Of a DNA stretch of 64,000 nt, positions 2,992 to 63,772 are shown piece after piece. Origin of the DNA: Candidatus Bathyarchaeota archaeon (GTDB lineage: Archaea > Thermoproteota > Bathyarchaeia > 40CM-2-53-6 > DTGE01). The notes beneath the pieces are model-generated. The model was not told the DNA's origin. It did not search any database and worked only from the letters and a program-made list of their open reading frames with translations. The translations under genes and the position numbers were made by a program. Position 1 is the stretch's first letter. Each line of letters starts with the position of its first letter. Location: positions 1 to 64,000 of the forward strand of contig JAGTRC010000009.1 in assembly GCA_018396725.1 (NCBI GenBank), written 5' to 3'.

Positions 2992-3421
2992 CCCTCTCCA
3001 CCCGGTCGAGAAGTTTGAACAGCTCCTCGGCCGCCCCGATCATCCCCTCCACCTCCCCCCTCGTCGCCGTCGCCACCCCATACCTGGACTCCACGTAGGC
3101 GCTCTCCACATCGATCAATGGATCCCTATACCTCCTCACGAGGTCTAATATCCTATCCGACTCCCCGGAGCAGCCCAGCTCCTCCAACCCCTTGGCCAAC
3201 ACGCCTAAAAGCTCCCTGAGGCCGTGGATCCTCGGCGCCTCCCCCATGAGCCTCAGCAGCGCGGCCTTGATCCTAAGCTGGCATGCCTGGTGAACGTTGA
3301 ATGAAGCCATGTCCAGCCTGCCCCTCCCCAGGAGATCCCTGGCCAACTCCAAGAACTCCCCTGCCCTCTCCTTGATGACGTTAACCCTCTCGCCGCTCAA
3401 AACAGGCAGCGCCTCCACCAA
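2978..3421 (-). CDS. HEPN domain protein (module 2)
   Basis: A 147-residue HEPN-family protein, the likely toxin partner of the overlapping MNT gene. It shows the family core: a helix ending M-A-S-F-N-V-H-Q-A-C-Q, then L-R-I-K-A-A-L-L-R near residue 50, the I-H-G-L-R-E-L-L segment near 75 and R-Y-R-D-P near 113. I do not see a clear R-x4-6-H motif, so RNase activity is less certain than the fold. It starts at GTG or a near neighbour at 3421 and is the first gene of its operon. Confidence 0.8.
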   Translation of the reverse strand: MVEALPVLSGERVNVIKERAGEFLELARDLLGRGRLDMASFNVHQACQLRIKAALLRLMGEAPRIHGLRELLGVLAKGLEELGCSGESDRILDLVRRYRDPLIDVESAYVESRYGVATATRGEVEGMIGAAEELFKLLDRVERDVLG

Positions 3422-3632
3422 ACACCTTATTCAACCGATCAGCTAACCATCACACTTCCCAAAGTCTTAAACGGAAACCTATAGGCTTTAACTAAGCCGG
3501 TACTGAGTGAGCCCCCATGGGGATGGCCGCCGTCAGCGTGGCCGGCACCGCCCCCCATGGCTGTATCCCAAGGCTTCAGGGCGGGATTCCGCGAGCTCCC
3601 ACTCCACCCCCTCTTCGCTCATCGCGGAGCCC

Positions 3633-4400
3633 TCATAGGCTCGTGCACACCTTTATCCCGAGCTTCTCCGCCGTCTCCCTGGCTTTCTCATCGACGTAGG
3701 GCGACACCACGAAGAGCCTCGGCTTAACCCCCTCCACCCTCTCGTATAACTGGCCAGCCCTCCAAAGCTCCGAGACGTCAGCCTTGGACACGCTGGATTT
3801 AACCTCGATCAGGATGCGCTCCTCATCCCTGGCCACGAGGTCGACCTCCACTATGCTTGGATGGCCGTGGACGAAGCCCTCCCTGTCATGGTGGATCCAC
3901 CTCTCAACCTTCCCCCCGAAGTAGCTCTCCACAAGCTCCTTCATGCCACGCCTAAAGGAGTCCTCGGCCAGTATCCCCCACCTAGCGCCTAAAGCCTGAA
4001 CCGCCCTGGCGAGCTCCTCAATCCTCTTAGAGTGCTCACCTAAAATCCTGGAGTGCTCCACGACCTGCCCCTGCAAGGCCCTGATAGCCTCGGTATTATC
4101 TGCGACCTGCCTCTGAAGCACCCTTATGGCTTCGGTGTTGTCGGCGACCTGCTTCTGAAGAACCCTAATAGCCTCGGTATTATCTGCGACCTGCCTCTGA
4201 AGCACCCTTATGGCTTCGGTGTTGTCGGCGACCTGCTTCTGAAGAACCCTAATAGCCTCGGTATTATCTGCGACCTGCTCCTGTAGGATCCTGATGGCCT
4301 TTAGGGCCTCATCTAATCCTAGGAGCCCCGCCACCGCATAGCGGAACTCCTCATCCTCCCTTAGAAGCTTGAACAGCCTGGACTTGAGTTCGGAGATCAT
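3633..4400 (-). CDS. DUF3782-like PD-(D/E)XK nuclease-fold protein with heptad repeats
   Basis: 255 residues in three parts. Residues 1-30 are helical. About 35-130 is a coiled coil built from 14-residue repeats of the form VADNTEAIRVLQ(K/R)Q. The C-terminal half carries a restriction-endonuclease-like core with E-V-D-L-V-A near 193 and I-E-V-K-S-S near 206, the D and E-x-K residues of the PD-(D/E)XK fold. The family is common in archaea and its substrate is unknown. The coiled coil is encoded by near-identical DNA repeats, so its length may vary between strains. No partner gene adjoins it; 211 bp of apparently empty DNA separates it from the HEPN gene. Confidence 0.72.
   Translation of the reverse strand: MISELKSRLFKLLREDEEFRYAVAGLLGLDEALKAIRILQEQVADNTEAIRVLQKQVADNTEAIRVLQRQVADNTEAIRVLQKQVADNTEAIRVLQRQVADNTEAIRALQGQVVEHSRILGEHSKRIEELARAVQALGARWGILAEDSFRRGMKELVESYFGGKVERWIHHDREGFVHGHPSIVEVDLVARDEERILIEVKSSVSKADVSELWRAGQLYERVEGVKPRLFVVSPYVDEKARETAEKLGIKVCTSL
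4087..4278. repeat. 84-bp tandem repeat within the coiled-coil gene
   Basis: Two perfect 84-bp copies (4087-4170 and 4171-4254) and a 24-bp partial third copy. Each copy is two diverged 42-bp halves that encode 14 residues each. The identity at synonymous sites shows recent duplication rather than selection on the protein alone. Confidence 0.9.
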
Positions 4401-4575
4401 CCCACACTCATGTCTAAAACAGGAGGTTGGGATATAAAGATTCTCGTGGCGCCAACCTCAGCCGCGAGTCCATCTCAGCCCGGAGTCTCCACTCCAGCCC
4501 TTGGAAGCCAGACAAATATGAGCACGCCCGCCCAGAGACCTTGATGTCCCCGGCCTAGTTCGGGTTTCCAACGGT

Positions 4576-4950
4576 TCACCTGCTCAGGGACTCCGTCGCC
4601 GTCGCGGTGGCGTTGATCGTCGCGCTGGTGATAACCAGCGTGATGGTCGCTGTCCCGTATAGGTTGTATCCCATGGCCTCGGGGTGGGATTCCACGACCT
4701 CCCATTCCTCCTCGGCCGTCAAAGTTTGGGGCTCCACCGTGGCCATCAGGGTGCTCGCCCGAGCCGTCGTGGGCTCGACCGTGGCCACGATGACCCTCAC
4801 CCCCTCAGCTGCCTGAGACGAGGCGTCTCCACCATAACCCAGGCGGTTGAGCTCACCGAATATTACCGGGGATAATACGAAGAGGACCACTCCGACCAGG
4901 GCTATCGAGGACCAGAACCTCCCCCCGGGCAATCTCATCCCATGGACCAT
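4576..4950 (-). CDS. small membrane-anchored hypothetical protein
   Basis: 124 residues with one hydrophobic N-terminal segment (about 13-31) followed by a Thr/Ala/Val-rich domain with weakly repeated V-A-T-V-E-P elements near residues 54 and 69. This suggests an exported, membrane-anchored beta-rich protein. I do not recognise a family. Codon choice is less clearly gene-like than in the neighbours, and the gene is flanked by non-coding DNA on both sides, so it is moderately supported. Confidence 0.45.
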   Translation of the reverse strand: MVHGMRLPGGRFWSSIALVGVVLFVLSPVIFGELNRLGYGGDASSQAAEGVRVIVATVEPTTARASTLMATVEPQTLTAEEEWEVVESHPEAMGYNLYGTATITLVITSATINATATATESLSR

Positions 4951-5297
4951 ACGCTCAGACCTTTAAGGTATAGGTGGGCTGATCAGCTATTAAGCATTTA
5001 GCAAGCCCTGATTTCAAATGCCATGGGGCTTGGAGGCTTCTCTAGACATCCCCGGATGAGCTCCCCTGGGGCTGCCCGACCTCCATCTCCACGGCTGAGG
5101 CGGGGTTGCGCATATATGGATGGCCTCAACCCGGGTATCCGTGGATCCGCGGCGCGTTTAACCCCTAGACATCCATGGGGAGCCGCGCCGTAGCCGCCTT
5201 CCCCGGGGCGATGCCCGACGGGCCTCCACCGCATCCCTTAAACGTGAAATAACGCTTATAAGATCCGCGTCATTAGCCATAGTTGAGCGGGGTTTAC
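4951..5297. other. intergenic region
   Basis: No gene recognised. A TATA-like element (gcttataag, around 5253) lies about 40 bases before the ATG at 5298 and is the likely promoter of the small ORF and the broken protease-like gene. Confidence 0.4.
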
Positions 5298-33658: not shown

Positions 33659-34969
33659 GTGCCGTTTAAAGGTTACCATTACATCTCAGAGGTTTTTGAA
33701 GGAGGCCCCAGGGATGAATCGGTCAGGGTCAGGGGGTGGCTCCACGGGAAACGCTCGAGCGGCGGCGTCCACTTCCTGCTTTTAAGGGATGGCACCGGCA
33801 TAATACAGTGCACCGTCCATAAGGGGGATATCCCCGAGGACGAGTTCAAATCCATCGAGAAGATACCCCTGGAATCCGTCCTCAGCGTCTCCGGAGATGT
33901 CAGGGAGGACCCGAGGGCTCCAGGGGGATTGGAGCTATCCGTCAGGGGGATCGGTATAATCCGTGTGGCTGAGGAAGGCTACCCGATAGCTAGGAAATAT
34001 CACGGCCCCGAGTTTCTCCTGGATCATAGACATCTATATCTTAGGAACGAGAAGATGCAGGCCGTTATGAGGGTTAGGGCGGCGATACTCGAGGCGGCGA
34101 GGGAGTGGCTTAGAGACAACGGATATACAGAGGCGCATATGCCCATCCTCATAACGGCGGCGTGCGAGGGGGGATCGACCCTCTTCGAGGTGAAATACTT
34201 CGACCGTAAGGCCTATCTCACGCAGAGCTGGCAGCTCTACGCGGAGGCCACGATAGCATCCCTCGGAAAGATATATACGGTGGCCCCATCCTTCAGGGCG
34301 GAGCGGTCTAGAACCAGGAGGCACCTAACCGAGTATTGGCATCTGGAGGTGGAGGCCCCATGGTACGACCTCGAGGACATAATGAAGGTTCAGGAGGAGC
34401 TCCTCTCATACATATGCCGTAGAGTAGCCTCTGAGAGGGGGAGGGATTTAAAGCTCCACGGCAGGGATCCCTCAGACCTGATGGATGTTAACCCTCCCTT
34501 CGAGAGGATAACCTACGATGAGGCATTGGAAAAGTTGAGGGGCATCGGTGTGAACCATAATTGGGGCGAGGACCTAGGCTGGGAACAAGAGAAGCGGCTG
34601 GCAGCCATGTTCGATAAACCTTTCTTCGTGACCCATTATCCTAAAACTGCGAAGGCGTTTTATCATAAGCCTGACCCCTCGAATCCTTCTGTGACCCTTT
34701 CAGCCGACCTGCTCGCACCGGAGGGTTACGGCGAAATAACCGGGGGAGGGCAAAGGATAGATGATCTAGATCAGCTCATCCAGAGGATACGGGAGGAGGG
34801 CCTGAACCTGGAGGACTATAGATGGTACGTGGAGCTTCGAAGATACGGCTCCGTCCCCCATTCCGGTTTCGGGATGGGGCTGGAGCGGGTCCTGATGTGG
34901 ATGTGCAGGCTCAGCCACATCAGGGATGCCATAGCCTTCCCGAGACTCATAAACCGCGTCTACCCATGA
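33659..34969 (+). CDS. asnS: Asparaginyl-tRNA synthetase
   Basis: Class IIb aminoacyl-tRNA synthetase charging tRNA-Asn. An N-terminal OB-fold anticodon domain (about 18-110) leads to the catalytic domain. Motif 2 reads F-R-A-E-R-S-R-T-R-R-H-L-T-E-Y-W-H-L-E, which separates AsnRS from AspRS (usually R-H-L-N-E). Motif 3 is G-F-G-M-G-L-E-R-V-L near 410. The GTG start at 33659 is used. Presence of AsnRS implies direct Asn-tRNA formation. Confidence 0.92.
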   Translation: MPFKGYHYISEVFEGGPRDESVRVRGWLHGKRSSGGVHFLLLRDGTGIIQCTVHKGDIPEDEFKSIEKIPLESVLSVSGDVREDPRAPGGLELSVRGIGIIRVAEEGYPIARKYHGPEFLLDHRHLYLRNEKMQAVMRVRAAILEAAREWLRDNGYTEAHMPILITAACEGGSTLFEVKYFDRKAYLTQSWQLYAEATIASLGKIYTVAPSFRAERSRTRRHLTEYWHLEVEAPWYDLEDIMKVQEELLSYICRRVASERGRDLKLHGRDPSDLMDVNPPFERITYDEALEKLRGIGVNHNWGEDLGWEQEKRLAAMFDKPFFVTHYPKTAKAFYHKPDPSNPSVTLSADLLAPEGYGEITGGGQRIDDLDQLIQRIREEGLNLEDYRWYVELRRYGSVPHSGFGMGLERVLMWMCRLSHIRDAIAFPRLINRVYP

Positions 34970-35447
34970 GACTCCTCGCCCTCACTCTATGGAGGGCCAA
35001 GATGGCTAACGTTAAAACCCCGAGCATGATCAGGGGAGGAGACGGGAACTCGGGTACAACCGAGTATTGGACTTGGCCCTGGACATCCCTGAAACCTACC
35101 TTGCTCGCCTTGACGTAGACCGTATATAGGCCTCTGGGAGCCCCCTGCGGGGTACGATACTCATCGAGGAACCTGCCCGCAGCATCCGAGTATAAGAGGG
35201 CTATATGATAGGTTTCACCGTCGGGCCCGGTGACCTGGATTGAGACTAGAACGTTCTCCACTGGAGAACCGTCGAGGAGAAATATTCTACCTGACACCCT
35301 TATAACCTCGTCCAGATCATACGTCTCCTTATCCACGCTTACTTGGAGCTGCAGGGGCTCCTGAGCGTTAACGCTTAAAACCTGGGAGAGGATGATGGAA
35401 AACATGGCTGTTGAGAGGATCAGGATTAAATACAGCTTCCGGATCAT
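34947..35447 (-). CDS. secreted beta-sandwich protein with PEF-CTERM-like sorting tail
   Basis: 166 residues. A signal peptide (1-28) is followed by one Ig-like/carboxypeptidase-regulatory-like domain (about 35-128) with S-I-Q-V near 83 and A-S-K-V-G near 112. The C-terminus has V-V-P-E-F-P-S, a hydrophobic helix and a basic tail, the layout of archaeosortase (PEF-CTERM) signals. It should therefore be a cell-surface protein processed at the C-terminus. The domain is clearly paralogous to that at 38402-39385. It overlaps the end of asnS by 23 bases. Confidence 0.75.
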   Translation of the reverse strand: MIRKLYLILILSTAMFSIILSQVLSVNAQEPLQLQVSVDKETYDLDEVIRVSGRIFLLDGSPVENVLVSIQVTGPDGETYHIALLYSDAAGRFLDEYRTPQGAPRGLYTVYVKASKVGFRDVQGQVQYSVVPEFPSPPLIMLGVLTLAILALHRVRARSLMGRRGL

Positions 35448-35528
35448 CCCTCATCCTTAAAAGAAACGTATAACTCCTATATCAAGGTTCCATCACGACG
35501 CGTTTCCTGGGGTAGCCTCCCTTAGACT

Positions 35529-35693
35529 TTACCTGTCAGCTTCGAAATCTTCCTCCTTTGAGATGTAGATCCCCAAGGTATCATCGTCCTCTAGGTCTTC
35601 AGCCACCTCTTCCAGGTTGAGCCCATCCAGGGTTCTCATCTCCAAGCCTTCCCTTTTAAATATTACCAGCTTTAGTCTGCCAAGTTTATCCAA
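35529..35693 (-). CDS. 54-residue acidic hypothetical protein
   Basis: A short reading frame with TTG start at 35693, preceded by an in-frame stop and a GGGGTGA purine stretch that could bind 16S rRNA. The product is Asp/Glu-rich with a basic N-terminus (R-L-K-L-V-I-F-K-R) and an acidic middle (L-E-D-D-D-T). No family recognised. It sits alone between two secreted proteins on the same strand. Coding status rests on ribosome-site spacing and protein composition only. Confidence 0.4.
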   Translation of the reverse strand: MDKLGRLKLVIFKREGLEMRTLDGLNLEEVAEDLEDDDTLGIYISKEEDFEADR

Positions 35694-35951
35694 TTGTCAC
35701 CCCGCTCCCTGAAGCCCCGCGAAATGGATTAATCTTATTTCTAAGATTCTATCTAAATTCATGGGTTGAAACTTGGTTTTCACCATCCCAAATATCATAT
35801 TCGAGGATGGCCTGCACAGATGGGCGCTTTAAACGCTTTTACATTGGGCCGGTTCAACCCATGGAAGAGTTGGGTCGACCCGCCTATACGCCGGGGTCGT
35901 TAAGTCCTCAGCCGTGAACCATTCCTTGGGATTGGCTCAATCGTATCCGTG

Positions 35952-37118
35952 TCAGCTTTCGACTATGAATGTTTCGGATCCCGCCGCTATGAACCTGCCC
36001 CCACCGGATATCGGTTTATCCGAAACGTAGACCTTTACATGGTATATTCCGGGTTCCGCGTTTAAAGGTATTTTAAAGTCGAAGGGGAGGTCTTTGGATT
36101 CTCCCGGATTGATGGGGACCACGCTTAGAATGACCCTTATTGGGATCCTATTGGGCGCCTGTACTTCAACCCAGACCACGCTTGAGTCGAGGGCCATCCC
36201 GTAGTTCCTTACGGTCACCCTTATCTTCATGGATTCCCCTTGACGGTATATCAATCTTGTTTCGTTGCCCTCGGCGTTCAGGATGAGTATCGACTCTATT
36301 TGGACGCTGGGATATGATGGATACTCCGTGATGAAGGTTGTGTGGGTTCTAATTATGTTCCCGTTGTATACGGCTGTGGCGTATATGACGTAGGTTCCAT
36401 TTAACGGCTTTATCCCCTCTTTTCCAGTTGTCAACTTGAATGAGCTGTAGAAGGCCCCCAGCTTATCGGTTCGGGTTGAATTAAAGTATATTAGTCTACC
36501 CGCGGGGTTAACCGCGAACAGGTATATCGTAGCGTTGAATATGGGCACGCCGAAGTTCGTGGAGAGGCCCCCTATGATTCTAACCTCCTCCCCTATCCCA
36601 TATAGGGGCTTATCGGTTCTCACGGTCAATTCCAGCTCGGATTTATACGGTTCTTTGGGGCCGGGTTTAGAACCAGGCTGCTCGACCATCACCGAGACCG
36701 TGGCGCTGTTCGTGGAGCCCCCGAATCCTACGCCGACCACCGTTATATTATAGGTTCCCGGCGGAGATTCCGCCGCGGTTCTCACAGTCAGCTTCGATTT
36801 AAAATCGCTCCTGCCTATTCGTGGGGATAGCTGGCTCACCCATTCGAGGGGTAACCCTTCTACGCGGAGGAATACCAGCTCCCCTCCATGATCCTTGGGT
36901 CCACCGCCTTCCCCGATTCCCGTTACCTGGATGTCGAACTTAGCGATGTCTCCCGCCCTGCATCTCCTAACGGCGGGTTTCGCCTCCAGCCTGAATTTAG
37001 GTTCTTCGTCTACCCCCTCATCTAGTGCTGAGTTCGGGTTTATGTTTAAGCTGGCTATGGCTAGGGATGTCAGGAGTAGGGCTAGTAGGAGGGCTGGGGC
37101 GTGCCTGAAGCGGCTCAT
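35952..37118 (-). CDS. secreted multi-domain beta-sandwich protein
   Basis: 388 residues. A signal peptide (about 1-32) is followed by three immunoglobulin-like regions: about 45-150 (ending V-S-V-M-V-E), about 165-265 (L-E-L-T-V-R-T-D-K-P-L-Y, an alpha-2-macroglobulin/Ig-like pattern) and about 275-388 (CARDB-like, I-R-V-T-V-R-N-Y-G). N-x-S/T glycosylation sites are frequent. No C-terminal membrane anchor is seen, so it may be held by another surface protein. It is divergent from the winged-helix gene with 123 bases between. Confidence 0.72.
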   Translation of the reverse strand: MSRFRHAPALLLALLLTSLAIASLNINPNSALDEGVDEEPKFRLEAKPAVRRCRAGDIAKFDIQVTGIGEGGGPKDHGGELVFLRVEGLPLEWVSQLSPRIGRSDFKSKLTVRTAAESPPGTYNITVVGVGFGGSTNSATVSVMVEQPGSKPGPKEPYKSELELTVRTDKPLYGIGEEVRIIGGLSTNFGVPIFNATIYLFAVNPAGRLIYFNSTRTDKLGAFYSSFKLTTGKEGIKPLNGTYVIYATAVYNGNIIRTHTTFITEYPSYPSVQIESILILNAEGNETRLIYRQGESMKIRVTVRNYGMALDSSVVWVEVQAPNRIPIRVILSVVPINPGESKDLPFDFKIPLNAEPGIYHVKVYVSDKPISGGGRFIAAGSETFIVES

Positions 37119-37241
37119 AGCTTTTCGATATATCTCTTGTTGGATATATATTTAAGTGTTTTCCTGTATTACATAAGTACATTTCTCCAAAAAGCAGAAA
37201 TACCAAAAGCCGTGAATTACTAAAAAGATGAGGCAGAGGAT
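37119..37241. promoter_or_regulatory. divergent promoter between surface protein and wHTH-MinD operon
   Basis: AT-rich intergenic stretch with 'gatatatctc' and 'gatatatatttaag' near 37128-37155 on one side and 'attactaaaaagatg' toward the winged-helix gene. It could carry overlapping promoters controlled by the adjoining wHTH protein. Confidence 0.45.
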
Positions 37242-37601
37242 TTGAGGCGGGAACCCGACGAAGCTTCGACGAAGACGTTCCTCGAAATAATCCAGAAGCT
37301 GGAGACGATAATTCAGAGATTAGACGCCTTAGCGGAGAAGATAGATAAACTCTCCCTTGAAAAACCACGGGAGAAGGAGCCCAGAAGCCTGCCGATGGAC
37401 GTGGCGACGCTGTTATCATTACCCGATCATCTAAGGAAGACAGCCCTAATCCTCTGCAACTTAGGGGAGGCCACGGCGGAGATGGTGGCGAAGGAGACCG
37501 GGAGGGCGAGGGCCGCCGAAAGCGACTACCTGAACCAGCTGGCATCCAGGGGATACATAAAGAAGAAGAGGATAGGCAGGAAGGTGTACTTCCAAGTCTA
37601 A
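37242..37601 (+). CDS. winged-helix DNA-binding protein with N-terminal coiled coil
   Basis: 119 residues. Residues about 10-42 are a coiled coil (L-E-T-I-I-Q-R-L-D-A-L). About 50-118 is a MarR/ArsR-like winged helix: L-S-L-P-D-H-L-R-K-T-A, a recognition region R-A-A-E-S-D-Y-L-N-Q-L, and a wing K-K-K-R-I-G-R-K-V-Y. It starts at TTG 37242 and is followed 34 bases later by a MinD/ParA ATPase, probably in one operon. A regulator of the flanking surface genes is inferred. Confidence 0.75.
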   Translation: MRREPDEASTKTFLEIIQKLETIIQRLDALAEKIDKLSLEKPREKEPRSLPMDVATLLSLPDHLRKTALILCNLGEATAEMVAKETGRARAAESDYLNQLASRGYIKKKRIGRKVYFQV

Positions 37602-37635
37602 TTGGAGATGATGAAGAGGAGAACATGTAAGGGAG

Positions 37636-38430
37636 ATGGATGAATTGGGTTTAGGGATATGTCTACACTCCTATAAGGGGGGTACGGGGAAGACGACCAT
37701 CGCGGCCAACATAGCCGCATACCTAGCCGGGAGGGGCCTCAAGATATGCATATTAGACTACGACTTTAGGGCCCCGAGCCTCCACATAATATTTAAAGAG
37801 AACCCTAAAAGATGGGTTAATGATTATTTAAATGGAAGATGCGAATTCGAGGACGTACTCCATAAGCTCTCAGGGAAGTACAGGCTCGGAGGAGAGTTGA
37901 CGGCGGGCTTCGCCGACCCGTCCTCGGAGGCTTTACGGGACATGCTAGCCAAGGATAGGAAATGGGAGATGAACGCCCTGAAAAGGACTATAAAGGCGAA
38001 GAGAACCGTACTCGACGATCTAGGATACGACCTGTTCATCCTAGATACAAGCCCTGGCATACAATACTCATCCGTGAACGCCGTGGTGGCCTCAGACCAG
38101 GTGCTACTAGTGATGAAGGGGGATGAATTCGACCTGGAGGGCACCAGGGAGCTCGTGAAAGGGGTATACGAGCCCTTAGGCCGGAGGGCGAAGCTGATAA
38201 TAAATAAGATACCCGTCAAGGAGGTGGGCGCTAAACTGGCGGATGAAACGGTGGCTCACATCGTGGAGTCGCTGAATCTGGAGCTGCTGGGCAGGTTACC
38301 GTGCGATTGCATCCTCATGTTCGAGGGAGGGAAACACCTGTTCGTACTGGAGAACGAGGAGCATCCCTTCTCAAAGTCGATAGAGGAGATCGCCGAGAAG
38401 ATTAGAGCTTTGACTCGTACTCCCTCCTAA
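37636..38430 (+). CDS. MinD/ParA family ATPase
   Basis: 264-residue deviant-Walker-A ATPase. The P-loop K-G-G-T-G-K-T-T lies near 15-22, the switch I D-Y-D-F-R-A-P-S near 43, and the Walker-B-like L-F-I-L-D-T-S-P-G near 135. Such enzymes dimerise on membranes or DNA to position other complexes. No amphipathic C-terminal membrane helix is evident. It is cotranscribed with the winged-helix gene and overlaps the convergent surface-protein gene by 29 bases. Its cargo could be the surrounding surface system rather than the chromosome. Confidence 0.85.
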   Translation: MDELGLGICLHSYKGGTGKTTIAANIAAYLAGRGLKICILDYDFRAPSLHIIFKENPKRWVNDYLNGRCEFEDVLHKLSGKYRLGGELTAGFADPSSEALRDMLAKDRKWEMNALKRTIKAKRTVLDDLGYDLFILDTSPGIQYSSVNAVVASDQVLLVMKGDEFDLEGTRELVKGVYEPLGRRAKLIINKIPVKEVGAKLADETVAHIVESLNLELLGRLPCDCILMFEGGKHLFVLENEEHPFSKSIEEIAEKIRALTRTPS

Positions 38431-39385
38431 GCCTCTCATAGGTTTCATCGTCGATCTTACCCATGGCCTTCAACTCCTCTATCTTAGCCATAGCCCTGGC
38501 AGCCGACATATAGCTTAGGTCTACACCCCTCCTCCTACGCCTAAACCTGAAGGATAGGAGGGACGCGATGACGATACTAGGGAGGGCTAGGACCAGCATT
38601 ACGTAATGCCTATTCTCCCGAAGTATATGGTAGAGCGGTGAGGCTTCAGGCATTCCACCTTTCCTGTTGGATGTGGCGTTGGAGGGCTGCTCAGCCTCCA
38701 GGACCACCAGGGTGAAATTCGCCTCCCTTACTTTACCATCGGCTATCCCGGCTATGATTACATCGTATCTACCCGGGGCCGCGTCCCTCGATGCGTTTAG
38801 ATATAGAATGGAGTATCCTCCAGGGTTTATATACGCCGGGTTCAGGCGGTATCCGAGGAACCTTGGATGAGACACTATCCTTAAGGAGATTTCTTCAGGA
38901 TATCCTGGAACCGCCTCGATGGTGCAGTTTCCCAGTCCCCCCGGCTCCAACTCCAGAATTTTAGGGGAGATCATTAGATTGAAGTCGGAATAAAGGATGA
39001 AAGGTATATTCATGGTGGCATCCAAGTATCCCACTTTACTCGCAGTTAAATACAGGGTGTAATTGCCGGTGAGGATCTCCCCCTTCAACGTGAACTCATC
39101 GTAGAAGTAACCTGTCTCATTGGAATAGGTTAATGTTATATGGATGCTCCCGCCGTGCGGATCGTTAACCTGGATGGAGATTAGGGCATCCGGTACCCCC
39201 CTACCGTCCTGTTGAACCTGCCCCTGCACGATTATGACCTTAGAGGATTCCTGGGATCTATGGGTCAGCCTCACGGTTACCTTCAGCTCAGCCTCTGCCC
39301 TACTTGATGGCTGCACGTATACGATGGATCCCGAGACGACCATCATTAACACTAGGATTAGCGCCGCGGCGGATCTACCACCCAT
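38402..39385 (-). CDS. secreted beta-sandwich protein with membrane anchor and SHOCT-like tail
   Basis: 327 residues. A signal peptide (1-32) leads to an Ig-like domain (about 35-130) paralogous to the one at 34947-35447: shared S-I-Q-V, an H-I-T-L/H-I-A-L strand, Y-D-E-F/D-E-Y and A-S-K-V-G. A second beta domain (about 135-230) follows, then a membrane helix (about 258-278), a run of Arg and a cytoplasmic tail. The tail resembles a SHOCT domain (A-K-I-E-E-L-K-A-M-G-K-I-D-D-E-T-Y). It is probably a surface receptor-like protein reaching into the cytoplasm near the MinD ATPase. Confidence 0.75.
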   Translation of the reverse strand: MGGRSAAALILVLMMVVSGSIVYVQPSSRAEAELKVTVRLTHRSQESSKVIIVQGQVQQDGRGVPDALISIQVNDPHGGSIHITLTYSNETGYFYDEFTLKGEILTGNYTLYLTASKVGYLDATMNIPFILYSDFNLMISPKILELEPGGLGNCTIEAVPGYPEEISLRIVSHPRFLGYRLNPAYINPGGYSILYLNASRDAAPGRYDVIIAGIADGKVREANFTLVVLEAEQPSNATSNRKGGMPEASPLYHILRENRHYVMLVLALPSIVIASLLSFRFRRRRRGVDLSYMSAARAMAKIEELKAMGKIDDETYERLRREYESKL

Positions 39386-62489: not shown

Positions 62490-62939
62490 ATGGACTCTGG
62501 TGGGGTTGGTGGCACGGATAAATTTCTTCCCATGGCTCGGAGTGGGGAGGATCTACCGGAGAGGTATATCAAGAAACTGTTTAAATCTGGGGAGGGGGGA
62601 GGGGGGGTATCCCTTGAAACCCTTAGAAATTTGATAAGTGGTCTGCGCAGAATCTTAACGGAACCATATAAAATATCGCTTAAAGATAAAGAAGTGCCTG
62701 AAATTCGAGACCTCATAATCGCCAAGCTGATAAAATCGATAAAAATCGCCGAAAAAATGGTTAAAAATGACCCCGAAAAATACCTGCGCGTCCTAGGCTA
62801 CCTCGCCCAGGTATTAAACAGCGCCTGCGACTCCAAGCTCCGCTTCGACCTGCTCGCCGAGAAGGTCCAGGAGCTCGAGCGCATGGTCGCGGCGGAGGCG
62901 GAGAGGGCGGAAGGAAAAGGCGAAGGGGAGAAGGTTTGA
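62490..62939 (+). CDS. helical protein, possible terminase small subunit
   Basis: 149 residues: a Gly-rich start, a helical middle with many Lys (I-I-A-K-L-I-K-S-I-K), and a coiled-coil end (about 115-145, acidic/basic). It ends on the four-base overlap with the large terminase gene, the usual place of the small terminase. The 5' two-thirds has lower GC than the 3' end, a mosaic look. No recognised domain, so the role rests on position. Confidence 0.5.
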   Translation: MDSGGVGGTDKFLPMARSGEDLPERYIKKLFKSGEGGGGVSLETLRNLISGLRRILTEPYKISLKDKEVPEIRDLIIAKLIKSIKIAEKMVKNDPEKYLRVLGYLAQVLNSACDSKLRFDLLAEKVQELERMVAAEAERAEGKGEGEKV

Positions 62940-63772
62940 GCCTTGAAGCGCGGCTCAAGCGCCTGGAGCGCGAATTATGGCTGCGCCGAGCAAAACAAAC
63001 GATACCCGAGGATCCTGCCAGATTCTGCGTCGAGGTGCTGGGCTTCCGGCCCACGAAGTACCAACTCAAGCTCCTCAGGGACCCAGGCCAGTTCATAGCG
63101 GCGCGGTGGTGCAGACAATCGGGGAAGAGCTTCATAGTTTCAGCCCTCCTTCTCCACTACGCCCTGACCCATCCGGGCAGCTACATAATGGTGGTGGGGC
63201 CAAGCTTCAAGGCCTCGAAGCGCATCATCCGTAAAGTTACGCCTTTCTTAAGGAAAGTCCCCGGCTGGCTGAAGGGTAAACCCCGGAAGACCAAGCTGGA
63301 ATTCATCAACGGGAGCATGATCGAGGCCCACAGCAACAACCCGGATACGATCCGGGGGGAGACCAGCCACTTCGTCTACTGGGATGAGGTGAACTTCACA
63401 GCCGACGACGAGGAGATGTACGACGCCATAATCTTCAGCCTCGGGACGACCAGGGGCCGCTTCCTGGGGACCTCGACGCCGTGGACCACGGACCACATCT
63501 TCTACAGGATGTGCACGCACCCCGACTTCGAGGATTACAGCCGGCACCACGTGACGTGGCGGGAGGCCTTGGAGCCCAACGGCCCCCTATCCAGGCAGAT
63601 CCTCGAGAAGATCAAGAAACAATACGCGTCGGATCCCAACCGTTGGAGGCGGGAGATGGAGGCGGAATGGGCGGAGGACGAGGATGTCTGGCTGCCCCAA
63701 AGCCTCATCACGGACTGCATAGACCCCGACCTCGAATACTACGATGAGAGGGATCTGGTGGCCAATCTTTGA
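62936..63772 (+). CDS. terL: Large terminase subunit, ATPase domain
   Basis: 278 residues of a viral DNA-packaging motor. P-loop R-Q-S-G-K-S near 60, a Walker-B-like F-V-Y-W-D-E-V near 140, then coupling motif T-S-T-P near 175. The domain ends at a TGA just before the nuclease part, which lies in the next frame, so the protein is either split or frameshifted. Start is TTG at 62936. A genuine provirus or viral remnant is implied. Confidence 0.85.
   Translation: MSLEARLKRLERELWLRRAKQTIPEDPARFCVEVLGFRPTKYQLKLLRDPGQFIAARWCRQSGKSFIVSALLLHYALTHPGSYIMVVGPSFKASKRIIRKVTPFLRKVPGWLKGKPRKTKLEFINGSMIEAHSNNPDTIRGETSHFVYWDEVNFTADDEEMYDAIIFSLGTTRGRFLGTSTPWTTDHIFYRMCTHPDFEDYSRHHVTWREALEPNGPLSRQILEKIKKQYASDPNRWRREMEAEWAEDEDVWLPQSLITDCIDPDLEYYDERDLVANL

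Follow-up and report, generated by a model that had tools for sequence, protein, structure and literature searches.

The stretch of DNA analysed here, called the window, comprises the first 64,000 nucleotides of contig JAGTRC010000009.1 of a Candidatus Bathyarchaeota archaeon (GenBank assembly GCA_018396725.1). It contains a cluster in which a winged helix-turn-helix (wHTH) protein and a MinD/ParA-type ATPase are encoded among three predicted surface proteins of beta-sandwich type, named B1, B2 and B3. All five open reading frames claimed in an earlier reading of the sequence alone (the original prediction) are present where it placed them. The wHTH, the ATPase and B3 form a core that is found complete or not at all in related genomes. 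B1 and B2, which that prediction placed within the cluster, are separable from this core. No RNA family was found in the cluster region. A reading of the cluster as a defence system was rejected, since PADLOC gave only weak P-loop or CARF-like matches.

Co-occurrence of the wHTH, ATPase and B3 genes

The core genes were searched in 38 genomes of the order to which the window belongs, with the ATPase scored at >250 bits. The wHTH was found in 14 of the 38 genomes and the ATPase in the same 14. Full-length B3 was present in 13 of these, and in the fourteenth (G036) a contig end leaves just the tail of B3. The remaining 24 genomes lack the wHTH, the ATPase and B3 alike. All three genes are absent from G001, which belongs to the same family as the window's genome and is 98% complete; absence counts for less where the genome is incomplete, as with G019 and G021. 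The gene order of wHTH, ATPase and convergent B3 is retained wherever the contig permits, and most flanking genes differ. In the orthologous loci, the 3' ends of the ATPase and B3 genes overlap or lie no more than 18 bp apart. This all-or-none pattern across 38 genomes shows that the three genes co-occur beyond chance. Consistent with the original prediction, which had tied the ATPase to a surface protein, the gene-neighbourhood comparison finds it conserved with a membrane-anchored surface gene. Among the loci examined, B3 was found only in the window's order. Its association with the ATPase could have arisen once, which a tree of 54 ATPases allows but does not prove.

Table 1. Positions of the cluster genes and their features in the window (aa, amino acids; TM, transmembrane helix; AF2, AlphaFold2).
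Feature	Position	Strand	Description
B1	34947..35447	-	166 aa; MG2-like domain and C-terminal TM; pairs with B2, separate copies too
B2	35952..37118	-	388 aa; secreted, MG2-type; gene divergent from wHTH; often adjacent but separable
TGTATTACA palindrome-like element	37165..37173		between wHTH and B2; the window's only TGTRNYACA
wHTH	37242..37601	+	119 aa; helical N-part and TrmB-type winged helix; gene 1 of the wHTH-ATPase pair
MinD/ParA-type ATPase	37636..38430	+	264 aa; SYKGGTGKT as deviant Walker A; DxDxR following strand 2; CxC close to C-terminus
Deviant Walker A of ATPase	37672..37695	+	residues 13-20, YKGGTGKT, including signature lysine; from sequence and alignment
CxC motif of ATPase	38302..38310	+	C223, C225; from alignment
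ATPase/B3 convergent 3' end overlap	38402..38430		29 bp
B3	38402..39385	-	327 aa; signal peptide; beta-sandwich domains at 35-131 and 136-228; single TM; helical tail in the cytoplasm; core partner
B3 cytoplasmic tail	38405..38524	-	residues 288-327; helical hairpin, SHOCT-like; proposed ATPase docking site
B3 TM	38543..38611	-	about residues 259-281; from hydropathy and AF2 helix 259-307

The ATPase and the wHTH protein

The ATPase matches the Pfam families AAA_31/ParA/CbiA far over the cut-off. Its AF2 model (predicted local distance difference test score, pLDDT, 90.7) has its best fold matches in MinD, FleN, FlhG and Soj (E 1e-12 to 1e-15). With the motif SYKGGTGKT, its signature lysine and the MinD-type fold, it belongs to the deviant Walker A ParA/MinD group; the curated cut-offs of the NCBIfam models minD_arch and minD_bact are missed (56.7 of 201.75 bits and 53 of 212.9 bits). 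The DxDxR sequence of a Walker A' motif is present as D41-Y-D43-F-R45, in which both aspartates are invariant and the arginine nearly so. The C-terminal tyrosine cluster of bacterial tyrosine kinases (BY-kinases) was not found, the last 24 residues being without tyrosine. The CxC motif is invariant across 21 aligned homologues. No MinD-like C-terminal amphipathic membrane-targeting helix was seen when the model was inspected by eye, in which four residues follow the last core helix (244-260). Because the ATPase has no such helix of its own, its membrane contact could come from the tail of a partner. Residues that set B3-linked ATPases apart fall largely within 104-121 and 150-193; they may mark a partner surface, or merely shared ancestry.

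Named relatives of the ATPase are nearly all from Bathyarchaeota metagenome-assembled genomes (MAGs). When contigs were scanned for relatives, a single-sequence query gave none and an alignment query found them. A second ParA in the window's genome (G000) was considered and rejected: the other two P-loop matches are CooC-like and Mrp-like, and no further ParA/MinD candidate was found among the P-loop matches. Two further observations concern the relatives. In L008, L017 and L019, a single in-frame TAG lies within the ATPase match, which assembly error, the end of the match or recoding could explain. In L168 and L170, ATPase relatives stand without a wHTH, and the next gene encodes a coiled-coil protein that has a TM at its N-terminus.

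The wHTH protein matches the Pfam family TrmB with 26.9 bits (cut-off 25.6), and its best PDB profile match is AspA, at a weak E=0.005. Within the class, 146 of 257 genomes carry it (E<=1e-10); in a set drawn from the whole phylum it is present in 84 of 398. The wHTH gene lies directly upstream of the ATPase gene in 74 of the 80 named loci. In L048 and L315 the wHTH is fused to TackOD1, which has been reported from type IV pilus loci of thaumarchaea (PMC5847659). A Lokiarchaeota MAG (L222, 4992-6393) encodes an ATPase relative followed by a 217-aa protein that matches the wHTH model; by eye, the N-part of this protein resembles longin/roadblock.

The cytoplasmic tail of B3

The AF2 model of B3, built with eight sequences (mean pLDDT 78), shows two beta-sandwich domains, a TM helix that extends into the cytoplasm and a second short helix. 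The tail is modelled with pLDDT 80-91, and the fold matches are of generic Ig/FnIII and S-layer types. Among nine genus-level sequences, the mean pairwise identity is 60% in the tail (40 residues), 43% and 35% in the outer domains and 17% in the linker and TM. A tail better conserved than the rest of the protein is what a docking site inside the cell would lead one to expect. The original prediction described B3 as a membrane-anchored protein with a SHOCT-like tail. The TM anchor and the cytoplasmic tail are indeed present. B3 resembles SHOCT-tailed proteins in its short two-helix C-terminal tail and a weak Pfam match (15.6 of 27 bits, E=0.014), but this match is below the cut-off, and SHOCT was matched in only one of eight B3 homologues.

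Membrane partners outside the order and the f2 subfamily

Outside the order, the slot convergent with the ATPase often holds a protein like those of the major facilitator superfamily (MFS; PF07690), at about 20 loci. These proteins carry the tail motif PETLP..I..R.L..YI..AKKIKEKY, and in 15 sequences the C-tail is 42% identical versus 23% for the body. At six loci of the f50 set, the MFS gene stands beside a wHTH gene without the ATPase, and those MFS proteins end without the tail; the TackOD1 fusion of the wHTH in this set is shown for L315. When 12 B3-bearing genomes of the order were searched, the tailed MFS protein had no homologue in them. Homology between the B3 and MFS tails was considered and rejected. 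A post hoc pattern fits all 13 and 20 tails, but a profile of the MFS tail scores B3 tails no better than shuffles. Because the wHTH-ATPase pair outside the order adjoins other membrane proteins or none, the surface link seen in the window is a local variant of a wider module.

Within the window's order, genomes of the sister family f2 carry a second, distant ATPase subfamily, about 30% identical. At 12 loci (L050, L051, L225, L227-L234 and L237), the ATPase gene follows that of a TM-anchored beta-sandwich protein in the same operon, and a V4R protein is mostly encoded next. The f2 anchors share a recognisable cytoplasmic tail, and four further f2 paralogue loci have no anchor protein. The CxC motif is absent from the f2 ATPase sequences that were read.

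Promoter elements

In most Bathyarchaeia a conserved element lies about 90 bp upstream of the wHTH gene; beyond the window's order, most of the non-redundant loci have it as TCGYAAGAYTTAATA. The 14-bp pattern CGYAAGAYTTAATA stands at wHTH-ATPase promoters. Its matches number 131, spread over 96 of 257 genomes, whereas the reversed control pattern gave 11; a genome with the element has 1-4 copies. Some of the dyad and element searching was post hoc, and the shuffle figures are descriptive only. Fifty CGYAAGAYTTAATA sites away from the wHTH were inspected. Ten of them lie 19-60 bp upstream of a type IV pilus ATPase gene (FlaI/T2SSE-type), mostly followed by one for a T2SSF-type protein, and three precede the gene of a large surface protein that combines beta-helix, PKD and Big_1 domains. 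Co-regulation of pili within the window's order was considered and rejected, the pilus ATPase promoters of G000, G008, G010 and G012 being without either element. Nine of the 50 sites stand beside a NitrOD5-like gene (about 110-180 aa; L240, L242, L257, L258, L260, L263, L265, L275 and L285).

The associated surface proteins B1 and B2

B1 has a signal-like N-terminus, an MG2-like domain (Pfam E=1e-6, just below the cut-off) and a terminal TM with a basic tail. B2 has neither a C-terminal TM nor an anchor. Against the MG2 cut-off of 32.8 bits, B2 scores above (37.7), and B1 (29.5) and B3 (26.5) below. The domain that the original prediction had traced through short motifs in B1 and B3 is common to both (BLASTP 34% identity over 128 aa, E=2e-17), and B2 carries a more distant copy (E=4e-7). 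The PEF-CTERM-like tail of the original prediction could not be confirmed: no NCBIfam/TIGR PEF model matched B1 at E<=10, a search in which short models can be missed. The end itself, (P/S)EF followed by a TM and basic residues, is retained in orthologues, and exosortase/archaeosortase-like proteins are present in the window's genome.

The B2/B1 pair is not confined to the core locus. Another copy, which has the same promoter element as the pair of the window, lies elsewhere in that genome (L112, G000:C1:53000-62000, 3206-5142). G001 has the pair without the wHTH or the ATPase, and in f4 genomes it lies 24-75 kb from the core. A TGTNNYACA-type element is found upstream of B2 in the window, L112, G001 and the f4 copies distant from the wHTH; in L114 it stands at the very start of the B2 frame as called. 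Where a wHTH gene lacks a neighbouring B2, no such element precedes it. The element was first taken as an operator through which the wHTH would regulate B2/B1, a role that was withdrawn when the element proved to track B2 promoters. Control of B1 and B2 by the wHTH, as originally proposed, is unsupported because the B2 promoter element persists in a genome without the wHTH. As judged from their sequences, B1 and B2 are associated surface proteins under their own promoter element.

A possible relay from surface protein to gene expression

The core may represent an order-specific form of a widespread archaeal module, in which a wHTH and a MinD/ParA-type ATPase work with a tailed membrane protein in a relay from tail to ATPase to wHTH. 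This is the explanation we favour, and we give it about an even chance. The B3 tail would recruit the ATPase to the membrane and set its nucleotide or dimer state, and the ATPase would then act on the wHTH. The state or amount of a surface structure would thereby be fed back to gene expression in the manner of FleN/FlhG-FleQ, and the ATPase would perhaps also place or cluster B3. The proposal builds on direct observations, namely the genes themselves, their co-occurrence and convergent linkage, the conservation of the tail and the parallel case of the MFS tail. It is also favoured by the tailed anchor proteins of the f2 operons, by the fold of the ATPase, by the CapA/CapB precedent described below and, elsewhere in the class, by two links to surface machines: the CGYAAGAYTTAATA element common to the pair and type IV pilus ATPase genes, and the TackOD1 fusions. 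A broader version is held more tentatively, and we consider it somewhat improbable: interchangeable membrane partners (MFS-like in many lineages, beta-sandwich in the window's order) would be coupled by C-terminal docking tails to an unrecognised, widespread archaeal relay controlling surface structures, type IV pili among them.

No named system of this composition was found in the open-licence literature, in agreement with the original prediction, which knew of none. In the FleN/FleQ system, a MinD-type ATPase acts on the regulator of a surface machine. The window's set is similar in its MinD-type fold and in the proposed action on a DNA-binding regulator and surface machine. It differs in that the partner is a 119-aa winged-helix protein rather than an NtrC-type AAA+ activator, and the set includes a membrane-anchored beta-sandwich protein with a conserved tail and no flagellum. 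In the split BY-kinases CapA/CapB, the last 30-50 residues of the membrane protein CapA trigger CapB, a cytosolic ATPase of related fold (PMC3795738). The window ATPase shares with CapB the DxDxR sequence after strand 2 and, in our proposal, the switching by a short tail of a separate membrane protein. In contrast to CapB, it has a signature lysine, no tyrosine cluster and no polysaccharide context, and it scores below the eps_fam cut-off.

Several points weigh against the relay. The ATPase and B3 genes are convergent and not in one operon. At class level, 86 of 135 scanned ATPase frames (a redundant set) have no convergent gene. Because the B3 and MFS tails are not detectably related, docking would have to have been invented twice. 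The f2 tail, at 39% pairwise identity, is hardly more conserved than the ectodomain, at 36%. The B2 element is not tied to the wHTH, and the pilus-linked CGYAAGAYTTAATA element was not found in the window's order.

The main rival is DNA partition of the AspA-ParBA/SegAB type. The wHTH would bind a centromere-like site upstream of its own gene, the ATPase would move DNA on the nucleoid, and B3 would be a tether or incidental. Like the window's set, these systems join a ParA-type ATPase to a small DNA-binding protein of archaea and have elements in front of the gene. Both AspA and SegB bind palindromes that precede the genes encoding them (PMC5120986), which the conserved element upstream of the wHTH in most Bathyarchaeia would match. 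The tight pairing of wHTH and ATPase, the profile match to AspA and the lack of another ParA/MinD candidate among the P-loop matches of the window's genome also favour partition. However, neither SegB nor ParB, the bridge of AspA and ParA, is present: no gene lies between the wHTH and the ATPase in the window or most loci, a conserved membrane partner is found instead, and the similarity to AspA is weak. The core is also missing from G001, a sister genus with a nearly complete genome, and from further genomes of the order. The upstream element occurs one to four times per bearing genome, with other sites that include pilus and surface genes, and the tailed membrane partners in the convergent slot would be left unexplained. 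We consider partition unlikely.

Pure spatial positioning seems more doubtful still. The ATPase would place or cluster B3 like the haloarchaeal MinD4/MinD2 or bacterial TadZ/ParC-type ATPases, and the wHTH would merely autoregulate the pair. The MinD-type fold and the conserved membrane tails are consistent with this, and there is an archaeal precedent: in the available part of the Haloferax volcanii report, MinD2 and MinD4 position archaella and chemosensory arrays, and MinD2 has little transcriptional effect (PMC11588486). These are likewise archaeal MinD-family ATPases tied to surface machinery and not to division, but that part of the source describes no wHTH-ATPase pair or B3-type partner (PMC11588486). 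The strong conservation of the wHTH beside the ATPase over several classes, with fusion to signalling output domains in some lineages, suggests more than autoregulation. Finally, it is very unlikely that B3 adjoins the pair by mere inheritance without a functional tie. In favour of this reading, convergent neighbours have no common promoter and the B3-linked ATPases are compatible with a single origin; against it, co-occurrence is all-or-none across five families with mostly different flanks, and a second, unrelated tailed membrane protein occupies the same slot elsewhere.

The function of archaeal MinD/ParA ATPases is known mainly from Haloferax and Sulfolobus. The wHTH-ATPase module is conserved over several Thermoproteota classes, and the membrane partner, which has been exchanged, is most strongly constrained in its tail. 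It offers a testable handle on how the surface could be linked to gene control or cell organisation in the abundant, nearly uncultured Bathyarchaeia.

Other features of the window

At the contig end, a terminase-like open reading frame (window 62936-63772 and 62490-62939) was recognised by its sequence (AARWCRQSGKS..., VYWDEVNF), with no family search made. It possibly marks the edge of a provirus.

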